DNA of 64,000 nucleotides from Myxococcales bacterium (lineage in GTDB: Bacteria; Myxococcota_A; Polyangia; Polyangiales; JAFGIB01). Location: contig JAOUOP010000013.1 of NCBI GenBank assembly GCA_029880325.1, positions 62,001-126,000 on the forward strand. The letters are read 5' to 3'. Each line of letters starts with the position of its first letter. The first letter of the stretch is position 1. Positions 51,088 to 57,671 of this stretch are shown piece by piece. The position numbers and the translations under genes are program-made. The notes under the pieces were generated by a model. It was not told where the DNA came from and searched no databases. It saw only the letters and a program-made list of their open reading frames with translations.

Positions 51088-52902
51088 ATGGAAACCATGG
51101 AAGAATCAACTGAGGGTGAGCAAAGCCCAACTTTCGACGCCCTCGACCTCTCCGACGAGGTGCGCGAAGCCCTCGACGAGATCGGCTACGTCACACCGAC
51201 CCCGGTCCAGCTGGCGACCTACGGACCGGCGGTGGACGGCCAGGACATCATCGTCCAGGCGCGTACGGGCACCGGCAAGACCGCCGCCTTCACCATCCCG
51301 CTGGTCGACCGCATCGTGCAGAGCGACGGCGGTGTGCAGGCGCTGGTGCTGGCACCGACGCGCGAGCTGGCCCTGCAGAGCAGCCGCGAGCTGGCACGCA
51401 TTGGCAAGCACCGCGGCATTCGCTCCGTGGCCGTCTATGGCGGCGCCCCCATGGGGCGTCAGATCGAGGAACTCGAAAGTGGCGCCCAGATCGTCAGCGG
51501 CACCCCCGGGCGCGTCCTCGATCACCTCGAGCGCGGCACGCTCGACGCATCGAGCCTCAAGGCCCTGGTGCTCGACGAAATGGATGAGATGCTCTCCATG
51601 GGCTTCGCCCGCGAACTCAACGCCATTCTGGAGCGCCTACCCCCGCCCGACCGGCGCCAGACCATGTGCTTTTCGGCCACGGTCGACGACGATGTGCGCG
51701 ACCACGCCGAGCGCCATATGCGCGACCCGCAGATGGTCTCGCTGTCGAGCGACGCGGTGGGCGCCGAAGAGGTCAGCCACTACGTCTACATGGTCAGCGG
51801 TAGCGATCGCGTCGGCGATCTGGTGCGCGTGCTCGAGGTCGAAGACCCCGAAAGCGCCATCATCTTCTGCAATCTGCGCTCCGAGACCGAACGCGTGGCC
51901 TACGCCCTGCAGCGCGCGGGTTTCGACGCCGACTGGCTCAACGGCGACCTACCGCAGTCCGAGCGCGAAAAGGTCATGTCCCGCACCCGCGCCGGCAAGC
52001 TGCGCTACCTGGTTGCGACCGACGTGGCCGCCCGCGGCATCGACGTCTCACACCTGACCCACGTCATCAACTATAGCTTCCCGGAGGCGACGGCGATCTA
52101 CGTACACCGCACCGGTCGCACCGGTCGTGCCGGCCGCACTGGCTGCGCCATCTCCCTGGTCAGTCCTCCGGAACTTGGCCGTCTCTATTACCTGCGGCTG
52201 CAGTACAAGATCTTTCCGGTCGAGCGCAGCCTGCCGACCGAGGGCGAGCTGCAGACGCGGGCCGAGGCCGATCGCATCGCGCTGCTGTCGGCCGCCTTCA
52301 CTGGAGCACAGAGCCCCGACTCTCTGGCCCTGGCGCAGCGACTTTTGACCCATCCGGAGGCCGAGCGCATCGTCGGCGGCCTGGTCGCGGCCTTCTTCGG
52401 CGCCAGCACCCAAGAGGGCGAAGACGCCGACGAACAGGCCGCGGCCGCACGCCGCCGCGGCCCGACCGCGCGCCGTCGCCCCGCAGCCCGCACGGTCGAG
52501 CCGAACGACGAGGACGGCGATGGCGACGGGCCGCAGCGGGGCCGCAACGCAGCGCGCCGCAGCCGCCCGGCCGCGCGCGCACCGAGCAAGCGCCCCCCGG
52601 CCCCCGAAGAGGACATCACCTTCACCGAGACCAACGCGGACGTTCCGCCCGATACCCCGCTGGCCACCCTCTACCTGAAGGTCGGCCGTAAGGACGGCGC
52701 GCGCGTGGGCGAGATCGCCCGGCTGGTGCGCGAGGCCGGCGATCTGCGCCGCGCCGACGTGGGCAAGATCCGCATGCGCGACCACCACACCCTGGTGCAG
52801 ATTCCCGAGGCCCAGCTGGACTCGCTGATCGAGGCCCTGAAGGACCAGCAGCTGCACGAACGGGAGCTGTCGCCCCAGCGCGCCAATCGGGAGCCGGCAT
52901 GA
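51088..52902 (+). CDS. DEAD-box-type ATP-dependent RNA helicase (DEMD variant)
   Basis: 604 residues. Q motif and TPVQLATYG, Walker A ARTGTGKTAAFT, Ia PTRELALQ, Ib SGTPGRVLDHL, motif II LDEMDEML (DEMD instead of DEAD), III FSATVDD, motif V/VI VINYSFPE and HRTGRTGRAGRTG. A linker of Arg/Ala/Pro follows. The C-terminus (~520-600) is a DbpA-like RNA-binding domain, LYLKVGRKDGARVGEIARL. It unwinds RNA; relatives such as CsdA/DeaD act in ribosome assembly and cold response. Start at ATG 51088, nearly adjacent to the preceding gene. It overlaps the next lipoprotein gene by 4 bp. Confidence 0.9.
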   Translation: METMEESTEGEQSPTFDALDLSDEVREALDEIGYVTPTPVQLATYGPAVDGQDIIVQARTGTGKTAAFTIPLVDRIVQSDGGVQALVLAPTRELALQSSRELARIGKHRGIRSVAVYGGAPMGRQIEELESGAQIVSGTPGRVLDHLERGTLDASSLKALVLDEMDEMLSMGFARELNAILERLPPPDRRQTMCFSATVDDDVRDHAERHMRDPQMVSLSSDAVGAEEVSHYVYMVSGSDRVGDLVRVLEVEDPESAIIFCNLRSETERVAYALQRAGFDADWLNGDLPQSEREKVMSRTRAGKLRYLVATDVAARGIDVSHLTHVINYSFPEATAIYVHRTGRTGRAGRTGCAISLVSPPELGRLYYLRLQYKIFPVERSLPTEGELQTRAEADRIALLSAAFTGAQSPDSLALAQRLLTHPEAERIVGGLVAAFFGASTQEGEDADEQAAAARRRGPTARRRPAARTVEPNDEDGDGDGPQRGRNAARRSRPAARAPSKRPPAPEEDITFTETNADVPPDTPLATLYLKVGRKDGARVGEIARLVREAGDLRRADVGKIRMRDHHTLVQIPEAQLDSLIEALKDQQLHERELSPQRANREPA

Positions 52903-53486
52903 ACGGAGCCGGGGGCCCCTGGCGCGCGCTGCCCATGGTCATCCCCGCCTACCTGGCCATGGCCTGTGGCGGTGGCGACGAGCCCCAGCAACCGCCGAGC
53001 CGCGAGCGATCGCGCGGGGTGCCCGAATTTCAGGCACCGATGCCGAACCCGGACGCTCCGGCCGCCGCAGCGGCGCGCCCACCACGTCCCGGCAGCACGG
53101 CACCGGCCAGCCCCAGGCCCAGCACCGACCCGGGCGCCGAAGCCGAAGCTCAAGCCGAAGCCGAAGCCGAAGAGAAGAAGCGCGACTACGCCGCCGAGCT
53201 GAAGGCGGCCTTCGGTAGCCCCCTGGGCTGCATGGGCCAGCGCGAGGCCGGCGAGCAGCTGCCGCCCCGGATCACGCTGCAGCTGCAGGCCCACGTGCTC
53301 GATTCCGGCCGCATCACCCGGGGCTACGTCAGCGCCCCTGGCCTGCAAGCCCAGGAGCTGAGCTGCCTGGAACGCCAGCTGCGAGCCGCCCGCCTGCCCG
53401 GCGCAATCGAAGGCGCACCCCGCCAGATCAGCACCACCGTGGGCATCGAATTCAAAGCCGCCGCGGCGGCCGCCAAAGGCCCTTGA
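52899..53486 (+). CDS. Lipoprotein with AgmX/TonB-like C-terminal domain
   Basis: 195 residues. The signal peptide ends LAMAC (lipobox). Pro/Ala/Glu-rich linker (including AEAQAEAEAEE, in-frame codon repeats), then from ~100 an AgmX/PglI-type domain: a first Cys in FGSPLGCMGQREAG, ITLQLQAHVLDSGRITRGYV and a second Cys in LSCLERQLRAARLPG. The same Cys spacing and strand order occurs in the C-terminal domain of the kinase-like protein downstream. It is probably periplasmic, with the pair disulfide-bonded. It overlaps the helicase gene (ATGA), and a weak hairpin follows. Confidence 0.72.
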   Translation: MNGAGGPWRALPMVIPAYLAMACGGGDEPQQPPSRERSRGVPEFQAPMPNPDAPAAAAARPPRPGSTAPASPRPSTDPGAEAEAQAEAEAEEKKRDYAAELKAAFGSPLGCMGQREAGEQLPPRITLQLQAHVLDSGRITRGYVSAPGLQAQELSCLERQLRAARLPGAIEGAPRQISTTVGIEFKAAAAAAKGP

Positions 53487-53506
53487 CCCCGTAATTGGGG
53501 GGTTTT
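53486..53506 (+). terminator. Weak hairpin with T run
   Basis: ACCCC-GTAATT-GGGGGG-TTTT after the lipoprotein stop: a 4-5 bp stem and four T. Poor but terminator-like. Confidence 0.3.
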
Positions 53507-53576: not shown

Positions 53577-55523
53577 ATGAGCGCTCCGACGCCGGCTACC
53601 GACACCGCAACATCCCCGGCCATCGAGAGCGGAACGCTGCTCGGCGGTCGCTTTCGGGTCGAACGCCCCAGCCACGAGGACGCCCTGGGCGCGACCTTGC
53701 TGGCCCGCGACGAAAAGACCCGCAAGCCGATCGCGATCCGCGTGCTATCGCAGCGCATCGTGACCGACACCGACACCTTCGACGCCATCCGCGGCGAGGT
53801 GAAGGCCGCCGCCAAGCTCAAGCACCGCTCCCTGATGGGCACCTACGGCGTCGGCACCCACGGCGGCAACCATCCCTTCATCGCCACCGAGTGGGTCAAT
53901 GGCGAACCCCTATCGGAGCTGGTCGTAAAGCGGCGGCAAGCGCAGCAACCCCTGAGCGTGCGCGGCGCCTACAACGTCATCGCCCACGTGTGCAAGGCGC
54001 TGGGCACAGTGCACGATAGCAGCTGCCACGGTGCACTGCGCCCGAGCGTGGTGTGGGTCTCGCGCAGCGGTCGCGTCAAGATCGGCGACCTGGGCGTCGG
54101 GCTGGCCCTGGTCGGCTCGGGCAAGTGGGCGCTACTGCCGGCCGAGGAGCAGGCCTACCTCGCTCCGGAGGTCAAAGCCGACGGCACCCCCGACGCGCGC
54201 AGCGACGTCTTCGGCATCGGAGCCCTGCTCTACGTGATGCTGACCGGGCGCTCGCCAATGGACGACTTCGTGCCCCCGTCCCAGGCCCACCCGGATGCCA
54301 CCGAAGAACTCGATGCCATTCTGATGCAGTGCCTGGCGGTGGATCCCACCCAGCGCTACCAGGACGTCAAGGACATCGCCGCGGCCCTGCTGCCGCTGGT
54401 GGCAAGCACCCCGGAACCGGAGGGCAACGAGTTCGGCGTCGACCTGGAACTCGACATCGACATCGCCATGTCGATCGCCCCGCCCGCTCCGGAACCGGCC
54501 CACGACGCCCCCGCGGCGGTGGTCTTCCAGGGCGCCAGCGCACCGGCCGGTGCCATCCCCGCTGTCGCCCCCGCGCCCATGGCGGCGCCCAATCCGCTGG
54601 CCGCGCCCGCACCGATGGCGGCCGAGCCCGCAGCCCCGCGCAAGCGCCTCGAAGACGAACTCGGGGAGTTGACCGACCGCCTCACCCAAAACGACGCCCC
54701 GCGCTGGATGGCGGTCAAGGGAGGCCTAGACCACGGCCCCTTCACGGCGCGCGAGCTGATCAAGCTGATCGTGGAGGGCGAAGTGCTCTCCGAACATGGC
54801 CTGCTGAACATGGACAGCAATGAGCGCAAGCCGCTGGCCGAGTGGGAGGAGTTCCAGGACTTCGTGCAGCAGTACAAGCTGCGCCGTGAGGAGGCCGAGC
54901 ACGCCGCCGCGCTAGAGGCCTCGACCAAGATCGAGCGCCGCGGCAACGTCGCGAAGTTCGCGATCCTGGGCGGCTCGCTGGCCCTGATCCTCTTTGCGGG
55001 CGGCGGCTACTTGCTCAGCCGTCAGGCCGCCGAAAAGCGCGAGGCCGGTGACGACGTGGACCTGGCCGCCATGTTCGAGAGCGGCCAGGTTCAGATCCAG
55101 GGCACCGCCGGCATCCTCAAGGCACCCACGGGCGGCAAGCGGCGCAAGGGCGGCGCCCGCTCGGGTGGCGGCGGAGGAGGCTTCACCTCCTACGAGGACG
55201 CCATGAACACCGCCATGGAGCTCGGCGATGCCACCAAGGGCGGCGGCGAACGCCAGCTGCGCAGCTCCGACGTGGCGGGCGTAATGAATCGCAAGCTCAA
55301 CACCCTCTTCGGCTGCGTCTCCCAGGAACTCCGGCGCGGTGGCCGTCTGGGTAACGTGCGTATCGACCTCGCCATCCTCGGCAGCGGCAAGGTCATGGGC
55401 GCCAGCGTCAACACCGGTAGCGGCGCCTTCAAGAAGTGCATCGCAGCCAAGGTCCGCAGCATCCAGTTCCCGTCCTTCCCGGCGCCGCGCATGGGCGCGC
55501 GCTATTCCTTCGACGTCGATTGA
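53577..55523 (+). CDS. Pseudokinase - GYF_2 - TM - AgmX/TonB-like fusion protein
   Basis: 648 residues. (1) ~20-275: Ser/Thr-kinase-like fold, but the VAIK Lys is Arg55, the catalytic loop reads HGALRPSV instead of HRDLKPxN (Asp to Ala153), and DFG is DLG (171-173). It is predicted inactive. (2) Ala/Pro linker. (3) ~376-432: GYF_2 domain (WMAVKGGLDHGPFT, with the Gly-Pro-Phe core). (4) one membrane helix ~460-480. (5) periplasmic C-terminal AgmX/PglI domain with Cys580 and Cys621 (LFGCVSQELRRGGR, VRIDLAILGSGKVMGA). The layout resembles myxobacterial GltJ/AgmX (zinc finger, GYF, TM, TonB-like domain), with a pseudokinase in place of the zinc finger. Likely an envelope-spanning coupling protein (inference). 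Confidence 0.82.
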   Translation: MSAPTPATDTATSPAIESGTLLGGRFRVERPSHEDALGATLLARDEKTRKPIAIRVLSQRIVTDTDTFDAIRGEVKAAAKLKHRSLMGTYGVGTHGGNHPFIATEWVNGEPLSELVVKRRQAQQPLSVRGAYNVIAHVCKALGTVHDSSCHGALRPSVVWVSRSGRVKIGDLGVGLALVGSGKWALLPAEEQAYLAPEVKADGTPDARSDVFGIGALLYVMLTGRSPMDDFVPPSQAHPDATEELDAILMQCLAVDPTQRYQDVKDIAAALLPLVASTPEPEGNEFGVDLELDIDIAMSIAPPAPEPAHDAPAAVVFQGASAPAGAIPAVAPAPMAAPNPLAAPAPMAAEPAAPRKRLEDELGELTDRLTQNDAPRWMAVKGGLDHGPFTARELIKLIVEGEVLSEHGLLNMDSNERKPLAEWEEFQDFVQQYKLRREEAEHAAALEASTKIERRGNVAKFAILGGSLALILFAGGGYLLSRQAAEKREAGDDVDLAAMFESGQVQIQGTAGILKAPTGGKRRKGGARSGGGGGGFTSYEDAMNTAMELGDATKGGGERQLRSSDVAGVMNRKLNTLFGCVSQELRRGGRLGNVRIDLAILGSGKVMGASVNTGSGAFKKCIAAKVRSIQFPSFPAPRMGARYSFDVD

Positions 55524-55556: not shown

Positions 55557-56354
55557 ATGGGGCGGCGCACAAAGCGGCAGGCCTGGCTGGCGATGGCCGC
55601 CGCATCTACGGTGACGGCGCTGTCGCTGGCCGGCTGCGAGCAGGTGGTGCGCGGCGGTCTGGATGAGCACCAGGCCAACGCTCTGATTCTCGCGCTCGAC
55701 AACGCCGGCGTGGCGGCGCGCAAGCGCAAGGGCCGGGCCGCAGCCGTCCGGGGCGCCGCTGGCTACGAAATCCTGGTCCAGCGCGACCGCCTGCCCGAGG
55801 CGATACGCATCGCGGACGCAGCTCCCGCGCAAGCGCCCGCTGGCCCGCCACTGGGAGACGAGGACGACCAGGTCGCCGCGCCCCTGGTGCCGACGCCGGG
55901 GCAGCAGCGCCTGGCCGAGGCGCGGGCCATCGCCGCCCGGCTCGAACGCTCCCTCGTGGAACTCGAGGGCATCAGAGCCGCGCGCGTGCACCTGAGCCTG
56001 CCCGACCCCGCCGCCCGACCCCTCGACGAGCCACACGCCACGGCCAGCGCCTCGGTGCTGCTATGGCAGGCGGCGGACGGCACGGGCAGCGCGGAACCAC
56101 CTGACGATGGGGCCCTGCGCCGACTGGTGGCAGGGGCCGTCTCCGGCCTGAGACCCGAGGCCGTGGCGCTTTTGCGCACCGCGGCCCCCACCCATCCGAG
56201 GCCCCCTTCCGGCGCGGCGCGCAGCCACGGAGCCCGGGCCGCGCGCGACTTTCGCGCGGGCCTCGGCGCCAGCTTGGCCCTCAATGCGGTGCTGGCGATC
56301 GCCGTCGCACTGCTGTGGCGGCGCCGCTCGCGACCGGACCTGGCAGGCCGGTAG
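55557..56354 (+). CDS. YscJ/SctJ-like lipoprotein
   Basis: 265 residues. The signal peptide ends LSLAGC (Cys27 lipobox). Then the SctJ ring-building region: LDEHQANALILALDNAGV (as in YscJ, where GLDEREANEI occurs), ARK and YEILVQRDRLPEAIRIA, a second region LEGIRAARVHLSLPDP, and a C-terminal membrane helix (~238-258) before a basic tail. In type III secretion this protein forms the inner-membrane ring. No other T3SS genes lie nearby. An inner-membrane ring of a non-T3SS assembly is one alternative. It is 33 bp after the pseudokinase gene. Confidence 0.72.
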   Translation: MGRRTKRQAWLAMAAASTVTALSLAGCEQVVRGGLDEHQANALILALDNAGVAARKRKGRAAAVRGAAGYEILVQRDRLPEAIRIADAAPAQAPAGPPLGDEDDQVAAPLVPTPGQQRLAEARAIAARLERSLVELEGIRAARVHLSLPDPAARPLDEPHATASASVLLWQAADGTGSAEPPDDGALRRLVAGAVSGLRPEAVALLRTAAPTHPRPPSGAARSHGARAARDFRAGLGASLALNAVLAIAVALLWRRRSRPDLAGR

Positions 56355-56894: not shown

Positions 56895-57671
56895 ATGACT
56901 GAGCAGAAAGAGTCTTCCGTCCTCTTCAACCTCCGGGAGTTGATGAACCTCGAGGAAGACCGCATCCAGGCCGAGGAAGAAGAGGCGCGGCTGAAGGCCG
57001 AAGAAGAGGCGCGGCGCAGGGCTGAGGAAGAAGCCCGGCTGAAGGCCGAGGAAGAAGCCCGCATTCGCGCCGAGCAAGAAGCCATCGAGGCCGAAGAGCG
57101 CCGGGTTCGCGACGAAGCAGCTCGCAAGGTCCGCGAAAAAGAAGAAGCGGAGCTACGCATCCGGCTGCAGGCGGAGCAGGAGCACCGCGCGCGCGAGGAC
57201 GCCAAGCTGCGCGAGCACGAGCTGAAGATGCGCGAGCTGGAATCCCAGCAGCGCAAGGGCATTCCGCCGATCGCGATGGCCGCGGTGGTATTGCTGGTGG
57301 CCGGTGGCGCGGCCTTTGGTTATCTGGGAGTTTATAAGCCCGCGCAAGAACGGGCCGAGGCCGAAAAGGCCGCCGCCCAGCGCCTGGCCGAACAACAGGC
57401 CAAGGAAAAGCAGCGCATCGCCGACGAGCTCGCTGCCAAGGAAGCCGAAGCCGAGCAGCTCGCTGCCGAGAAGGCAAAGGCCGAAGAAGAGGCCAAGCGC
57501 AAGGCCGAGGAAGCCGCTGCGATCGCCAGCCGTAGCAGCAGCTCCTCGAGCGATTCGGATCGACCCCGCACACGCCGTCCCTCCGCCCGCAAGGCCAAGA
57601 AGAAGAGCAGCGGTGGATCTTCGCGCAGCTCGGGCGAAGACGATCCATTGGCAGGCCTCGACGGCCTCTAA
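56895..57671 (+). CDS. Coiled-coil membrane protein, TolA-like
   Basis: 258 residues. A distinctive N-terminal motif ESSVLFNLRELMNLEEDRI, then ~25-120 of EEARLKAEEEAR-type repeats (long charged helix), a membrane helix (~124-146), then a second coiled segment (~147-215), a Ser/Lys-rich basic region and an acidic GEDDPLAGLDGL tail. The two charged helices lie on opposite sides of the membrane. The layout recalls TolA-like proteins that span the envelope. It comes after the pseudokinase/SctJ genes and has its own promoter. Function unknown. Confidence 0.7.
   Translation: MTEQKESSVLFNLRELMNLEEDRIQAEEEEARLKAEEEARRRAEEEARLKAEEEARIRAEQEAIEAEERRVRDEAARKVREKEEAELRIRLQAEQEHRAREDAKLREHELKMRELESQQRKGIPPIAMAAVVLLVAGGAAFGYLGVYKPAQERAEAEKAAAQRLAEQQAKEKQRIADELAAKEAEAEQLAAEKAKAEEEAKRKAEEAAAIASRSSSSSSDSDRPRTRRPSARKAKKKSSGGSSRSSGEDDPLAGLDGL

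Follow-up and report, generated by a model that had tools for sequence, protein, structure and literature searches.

A pseudokinase-GYF-TonB-like membrane protein encoded beside an SctJ-like gene in a Myxococcales bacterium

Introduction

What might a protein do that joins a kinase fold without its catalytic residues to a membrane-anchored TonB-like domain, and which partner would it serve? This question is raised by a gene in a 64,000-nucleotide stretch of DNA from a Myxococcales bacterium (the window). The first-pass annotation of its product, here called P0001, pointed to the GltJ (AgmX) protein of the Myxococcus gliding machinery and suggested that a pseudokinase had replaced the zinc finger of GltJ, coupling the cytoplasmic state to envelope motility or transport. 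To our knowledge, few bacterial Ser/Thr pseudokinases have been described. The one Myxococcus pseudokinase found by title in the literature searched is EcpK, reportedly a tyrosine pseudokinase (PMC12004946). No description of a pseudokinase-GYF-TM-TonB architecture was found in the full-text literature searched, a body of text that excludes most subscription journals. The same literature yielded nothing on a GYF domain in Myxococcus GltJ and nothing on a pseudokinase in a type III secretion basal body, and its papers on GYF domains together with pseudokinases concern, by title only, eukaryotic subjects.

Gene and domain organization of P0001

The gene and the parts of its product are as follows (supporting evidence in brackets).

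53577..55523, + strand: P0001, a pseudokinase-GYF-TM-TonB/AgmX protein of 648 aa (ORF, domain matches, orthologs)
53634..54404, + strand: two-lobe, catalytically degenerate kinase fold, residues about 20-276 (Pfam, phmmer, model, Foldseek, alignment)
54405..54695, + strand: Ala/Pro-rich linker with an alternating acidic/hydrophobic motif, VDLELDIDI (motif scan; low pLDDT at 287-359)
54696..54872, + strand: GYF domain, residues about 374-432 (profile comparison, predicted fold, alignment)
54951..55022, + strand: single transmembrane helix, residues about 459-482 (hydropathy)
55254..55520, + strand: TonB/TolA-like (AgmX-type) domain, presumably periplasmic (NCBIfam, structural search, alignment)

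An ORF check bore out the reading frame, with an ATG at 53577 and a stop codon ending at 55523, and the GC content by codon position (0.70/0.50/0.88) is coding-like. Full-length orthologs exist in relatives, by which a chance or spurious ORF was ruled out. An earlier start is possible at 53505, where an in-frame TTG lies; the alignment with the closest ortholog begins at the ATG at 53577.

From the N- to the C-terminus, P0001 consists of a PknB-like kinase fold, a proline-rich linker, a GYF domain, one TM helix, and a TonB/TolA-like (AgmX-type) domain. The only hydrophobic segment, near residues 458-482, agrees with the one TM segment that had been proposed, and the best reading of the topology is that of a bitopic, single-pass inner-membrane protein, predicted to be a non-enzymatic adaptor. 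The structural model is of moderate confidence (mean pLDDT of 63.7 for the whole protein and 60.0 for the C-terminal half), and the claims about folds made below therefore rest on sequence and structure jointly. The structural searches are limited in the same way, and families absent from their lists are not excluded.

The linker has low pLDDT values at residues 287-359. A looser form of its motif, picked after the sequences had been viewed, occurs in 43 of 67 sequences as against 7.0 expected from shuffling, while a strict regular expression matched 16 of 75. The motif is missing from four of the five rows of one genus, g8.

The kinase-like part is a pseudokinase

The kinase-like fold read from the sequence was recovered by Pfam (Pkinase, E 3.3e-19), by phmmer (a match to PknB, E 4e-29), and by Foldseek, the top matches of which are Mycobacterium tuberculosis PknA (E 1.8e-18) and PknB (E 7e-18). 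Structure prediction, one of the checks named in the first-pass annotation, returned a two-lobe kinase fold and a GYF fold. P0001 thus has the same fold as the Hanks-type kinases PknB, PknA, and PknI of M. tuberculosis, with 22-29% identity in the Foldseek alignments, but unlike these it has lost the HRD Asp, the VAIK Lys, and the loop Asn. The sites concerned are listed here; all were identified in the sequence and the family alignment.

53739..53741, + strand: Arg55 codon, replacing the VAIK Lys
54027..54035, + strand: His151-Gly152-Ala153, where HRD is expected
54048..54050, + strand: Val158 codon, replacing the catalytic-loop Asn

These are the three substitutions (R55, A153, and V158) that had been noticed at the outset. 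In the HRD motif, Gly152 stands for Arg and Ala153 for the catalytic Asp. Retention of a usable catalytic Asp or Lys had been named as the observation that would speak against a pseudokinase; P0001 has R55 and A153 at these sites. The sequence at the DFG site (D171-L172-G173, or DLG), with its Asp, and the APE motif are retained.

The losses extend to the family. Neither the VAIK Lys nor the HRD Asp occurs in any of 53 two-lobe rows from order and class relatives, a set that includes two over-extended C-lobe-only frames (G013 and G034) and therefore holds 51 true two-lobe rows; G031, classed as "other" by the script, also stems from an over-extended frame. The Pro and Glu of APE are present in 53/53 of these rows, and Asp is found at the DFG site in 29/53. 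Among eight orthologs from elsewhere in the phylum, six have the VAIK Lys and seven the loop Asn, the DFG Asp is changed to Asn in six, and none has the HRD Asp. As this residue is gone from all eight as well, loss of the catalytic Asp looks old, and further decay would have taken place in the class to which the window belongs.

Larger parts of the kinase have also disappeared. The N-lobe is gone and the C-lobe left in 12 genomes of families f8 and f12 (with G013, G034, and G031 counted), the proteins of which are about 520 aa long. The whole kinase is gone in G028 (344 aa), G007 (312 aa), and G029 (361 aa); the absent kinase of locus L150, which is cut by a contig end, was left out of this count. 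GYF, TM, and TonB parts are retained in the 12 orthologs without the N-lobe and in the three without the kinase. The absence of the HRD Asp from every ortholog examined, combined with the loss of a lobe or the whole kinase while GYF-TM-TonB is kept, marks P0001 as an old pseudokinase. The possibility that it is an active Hanks-type Ser/Thr kinase was rejected on the loss of catalytic residues in P0001 and of the HRD Asp family-wide. The kinase part is probably a binding or docking module rather than an enzyme, a role that fits better because of the graded loss (full pseudokinase, C-lobe only, none).

The GYF and TonB/TolA-like domains

The GYF_2 domain seen in the first reading of the sequence is not matched in P0001 at the Pfam threshold, yet profile comparison and predicted fold both agree with it. 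At E<=0.1, Pfam GYF_2 finds 15 of the 29 family members, with 0.0012 as the lowest value, and hhalign gives 96.3% (E 1.5e-9) for the family profile against the GYF_2 domains of the same genome. The predicted fold matches that of GIGYF1 with an rmsd of 1.3 over 50 columns and the GYF domain of Myxococcus xanthus GltJ (7z3c) with Z 5.6 and an rmsd of 5.6 over 72. All 29 rows of the alignment made for the C-terminal half share the residues D-H-G-P.

The proposed AgmX/TonB-like domain also found support. The NCBIfam model of the AgmX/PglI domain, NF033768, scores 30.4 bits on P0001 (E 3.2e-7), below its cut-off of 40, and matches 19 of 29 family members at E<=0.001. TonB/TolA C-terminal folds top the structural list, with Z up to 6.7 and an rmsd of 2.4 over 79; with Z under 8, a TonB/TolA fold of this predicted domain has moderate support only. 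No credible match came from PDB sequences when these were searched with the family profile of the C-terminal part. All 29 rows also have two Cys residues in this domain, which are C580 and C621 of P0001.

Relation to GltJ and GltG

GltJ/AgmX of the Myxococcus gliding machinery (NF033761; 7z3c) has a cytosolic GYF domain, one TM segment, and a periplasmic TonB-like AgmX domain, as has P0001. It carries a zinc ribbon where P0001 has the pseudokinase, and P0001 adjoins an SctJ-like gene rather than glt genes. In the HMM search suggested for GltJ/AgmX domains, an AgmX-type match was obtained below cut-off, and the GltJ model NF033761 reached 23.3 bits against a cut-off of 450. The match to GltG is 18 bits, and the zinc ribbon TIGR02098 has no match in P0001 at E<=1 in NCBIfam. 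P0001 was rejected as a GltJ ortholog on the NF033761 cut-off and the missing zinc ribbon.

Four other GYF_2 proteins, L001, L002, L003, and L004, are present in this genome. Two of these, L001 and L002, have the order zinc ribbon-GYF-TM-AgmX, with the zinc ribbon TIGR02098 present, and match the GltJ model with E 1e-27 and 1e-25, both under the curated cut-off. The pseudokinase does take the same cytosolic position as the zinc ribbon of L001 and L002, but to say that it replaces the zinc finger is too strong, as the GltJ-like proteins coexist with it. Because the genome carries them in parallel, P0001 is, by its sequence, a parallel, paralogous architecture and not a GltJ with a swapped input.

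A second relative is GltG/PglI, in which a cytosolic signalling-type domain is likewise followed by one TM segment and a periplasmic TonB-like domain, the cytosolic domain being FHA in GltG and pseudokinase plus GYF in P0001 (PMC3169522, as far as its text was accessible). The FHA-TM-TonB-like order of GltG implies that the cytosolic module varies in this class of proteins, of which P0001 is one more variant.

The SctJ-like gene and the neighbourhood

Two genes flank P0001 on the same strand.

55557..56354, + strand: SctJ-like (YscJ/FliF family) lipoprotein gene, 34 bases downstream of P0001 and likely in the same operon
52899..53486, + strand: small putative lipoprotein, upstream, with an AgmX-like C-terminal part (hhalign 87.4%, E 3.7e-6)

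The product of the downstream gene matches PF01514 over cut-off (E 4.6e-13), and its lipobox Cys27 is nearly invariant; against the equivalog model TIGR02544 it scores 68.5 bits and does not reach the cut-off of 162. It is the sole YscJ-family gene found by Pfam in this genome. The upstream lipoprotein belongs to a cluster drawn from nine sources, in one of which the gene lies on the opposite strand, and it accompanies P0001 in part of the order. Past the SctJ-like gene, on its downstream side, 56895-57671 encodes a protein rich in Lys and Glu that weakly matches TolA.

The comparison of gene order covered 40 loci besides the window. Of 54 order-level loci, 49 have at least 800 bases beyond the gene, and in 42 of these 49 the SctJ-like gene lies directly downstream of or overlaps the P0001 ortholog on the same strand. 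L050, with 871 bases, was counted as adjacent, and five loci with less than 500 bases beyond the gene (L040, L067, L069, L144, and L146) were set aside. Coordinates also show SctJ adjacency in G006, which stands outside this count. The seven loci without adjacency are three of g8 and four of family f12. In f6 loci the adjacency is still found after all other window neighbours have gone, and it recurs in L148, L149, and L150 (families f20 and f16). The DEAD-box helicase and the response regulator, other neighbours in the window, are conserved in only part of the order. The synteny comparison turned up an SctJ-like gene as the most constant neighbour, and gliding genes were not recognised in any of the neighbourhoods read.

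SctJ adjacency is absent from four class-level loci (L151-L154) and from eight phylum-level loci, which suggests that the link between P0001 and SctJ probably arose after the protein family itself. Bradymonadia-type genomes have both genes, with SctJ not adjacent to the P0001 ortholog.

In L045, L049, L051, and L074, the P0001-SctJ pair is followed at a short distance by genes that were named by eye as Mla-like transporter components (ATPase, permease, and MCE-type protein). An Mla-like transporter cluster was dropped as an explanation, being present near SctJ in some relatives only. Six Bradymonadia-type loci (L167, L168, L170, L171, L172, and L174) have another constant context, consisting of an upstream small lipoprotein and other conserved upstream genes; a TsaE-like gene lies downstream in five of these six (by-eye names and clusters).

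Scattered type III secretion genes

In type III secretion systems (T3SS), SctD has a cytosolic FHA domain, a TM segment, and a periplasmic ring domain. The T3SS parts searched for were SctJ, SctN, SctR, SctU, SctV, and SctD. Besides SctJ, four parts were found by Pfam in this genome (G000).

G000 C31:179267-181042: SctV (FHIPEP), single gene
G000 C109:97463-98077: SctR, single gene
G000 C61:128217-129218: SctU, single gene
G000 C37:2223-3479: SctN, the single ATPase over the FliI/YscN cut-off

Each lies on a contig of its own, other than that of P0001, with no neighbours recognised as T3SS genes, and the best-scoring models for SctN, SctR, and SctU are non-flagellar ones. In none of 56 genomes did an SctD match exceed the cut-off; the weak matches cover the N-terminal part of the model.

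In M. xanthus, a needleless T3SS* (mxan_2434-2464) is needed for prey lysis (PMC12075869, accessible part). This system comprises an export apparatus, an ATPase, and an inner-ring protein, without secretin or needle (accessible text of PMC12075869 and PMC3459982). The export-apparatus genes sctV, sctR, and sctU, the ATPase gene sctN, and sctJ are also found here, each as a single copy; the T3SS* genes form one cluster, whereas those found here are scattered. According to the part of PMC3459982 that could be consulted, the T3SS of myxobacteria is confined to Cystobacterineae. Polyangia genomes carry sctV and sctR according to PMC11509652; in the accessible part of this paper no reference was seen to scattered T3SS genes or to a gene like that of P0001 beside SctJ. 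The single, scattered SctJ, SctN, SctR, SctU, and SctV suggest that the myxobacterial T3SS or its descendants reach beyond Cystobacterineae.

The P0001 family is also found where this system is not. Orthologs are kept in 5/5 genomes of the single genus g8 (95-100% complete), and in these five genomes none of SctJ (family profile), SctR, SctU, and SctV was detected. In f12, the ortholog lies apart from SctJ in G019, G054, and G046, and G034 has a FliF-length match only; in f23, G072 and G096 encode a relative of the protein and, again, yield only a FliF-length match. Neither gene is present in G036, by co-loss or by one assembly gap. Orthologs without SctJ or away from it must therefore have some function independent of SctJ, and an older, SctJ-independent role of the family would remain in some lineages.

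Discussion

In this lineage, P0001 may be a non-enzymatic bitopic adaptor that works with the SctJ-like ring of a non-flagellar T3SS whose genes are scattered and which probably lacks a needle, a reading that we hold at a little under an even chance. It builds on the anatomy of the protein, the family-wide catalytic loss, and the SctJ-like gene directly downstream in most order-level relatives. The pseudokinase would form a docking surface, for which the C-lobe would be enough in some lineages, a few doing without the kinase altogether. The GYF domain would bind either a proline-rich cytosolic partner or the proline-rich linker of P0001 itself, and this state would reach the TonB/TolA-like domain in the periplasm through the TM helix. 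The output partner in this lineage would be the SctJ-like ring, contacted by P0001, which may then take roughly the position of SctD beside SctJ. Like P0001 as proposed here, SctD (TIGR02500) is a bitopic inner-membrane protein that works with SctJ (PMC3459982, accessible text, for the SctJ-SctD ring). P0001 differs from it in lacking an FHA domain and a TIGR02500 match, neither of which is listed for it at E<=1 in Pfam/NCBIfam, and in its TonB/TolA-like periplasmic part, the C-terminal folds of which are unlike the ring domains of SctD. A bolder and rather doubtful extension is that, in Polyangiia, the protein with its pseudokinase, GYF, TM, and TonB parts was recruited from an older envelope adaptor of Myxococcota and takes the place of SctD next to SctJ, in a T3SS that is scattered and needleless.

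The main competitor, a serious one to which we give about one chance in three, is that P0001 is a general envelope adaptor or transducer resembling TolA, GltG, or GltJ, which may be driven by a motor of the TolQR type and would serve Myxococcota more broadly; SctJ adjacency would then have been fixed in Polyangiia without functional dependence. The TonB/TolA fold accords with this, as do the preservation of P0001 in g8 without the T3SS parts searched, its separation from SctJ in the eight phylum-level loci, and its wide distribution, with matches in 116/144 class and 53/112 phylum genomes at E<=1e-10, some of them partial or AgmX-only. It is harder to reconcile with an adjacency that outlasts the other window neighbours in f6 and recurs in f20 and f16. 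Membership of the gliding (A-motility) machinery or of a machine for Glt-like transport, in which the pseudokinase would be the input part, is improbable: the GYF-TM-AgmX order is that of GltJ-like proteins and there are weak matches to GltJ and GltG (23 and 18 bits), but the zinc ribbon is absent, the score lies far under the GltJ cut-off, and the genome has separate GltJ-like proteins. Coupling of cytosol to envelope by P0001, as had been suggested, is plausible; a part in envelope motility is disfavoured by the 23 bits against 450, by the lack of any recognised gliding gene nearby, and by a most constant neighbour that is SctJ-like. Least probable is an atypical active enzyme, a kinase or another phosphoryl or nucleotidyl transferase with a non-canonical active site. 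D171 of P0001, the Asp at this site in 29 of 53 rows, and the VAIK Lys and loop Asn of most phylum-level orthologs (6/8 and 7/8) would suit such an enzyme, but the HRD Asp is missing from every ortholog examined, the N-lobe from 12 orthologs, and the kinase from three.

In conclusion, P0001 is a new variant among the bitopic adaptors of the AgmX/GltJ/GltG type, with an unexpected link to a T3SS ring protein. Its pseudokinase is conserved in several classes of Myxococcota, the graded loss of this part (full, C-lobe only, none) speaks for a function in binding, and P0001 offers an SctJ ring a concrete candidate as partner. If the bolder reading, with P0001 in the place of SctD, is true, the basal body of a type III secretion system would include a conserved pseudokinase, as a structural or regulatory subunit.
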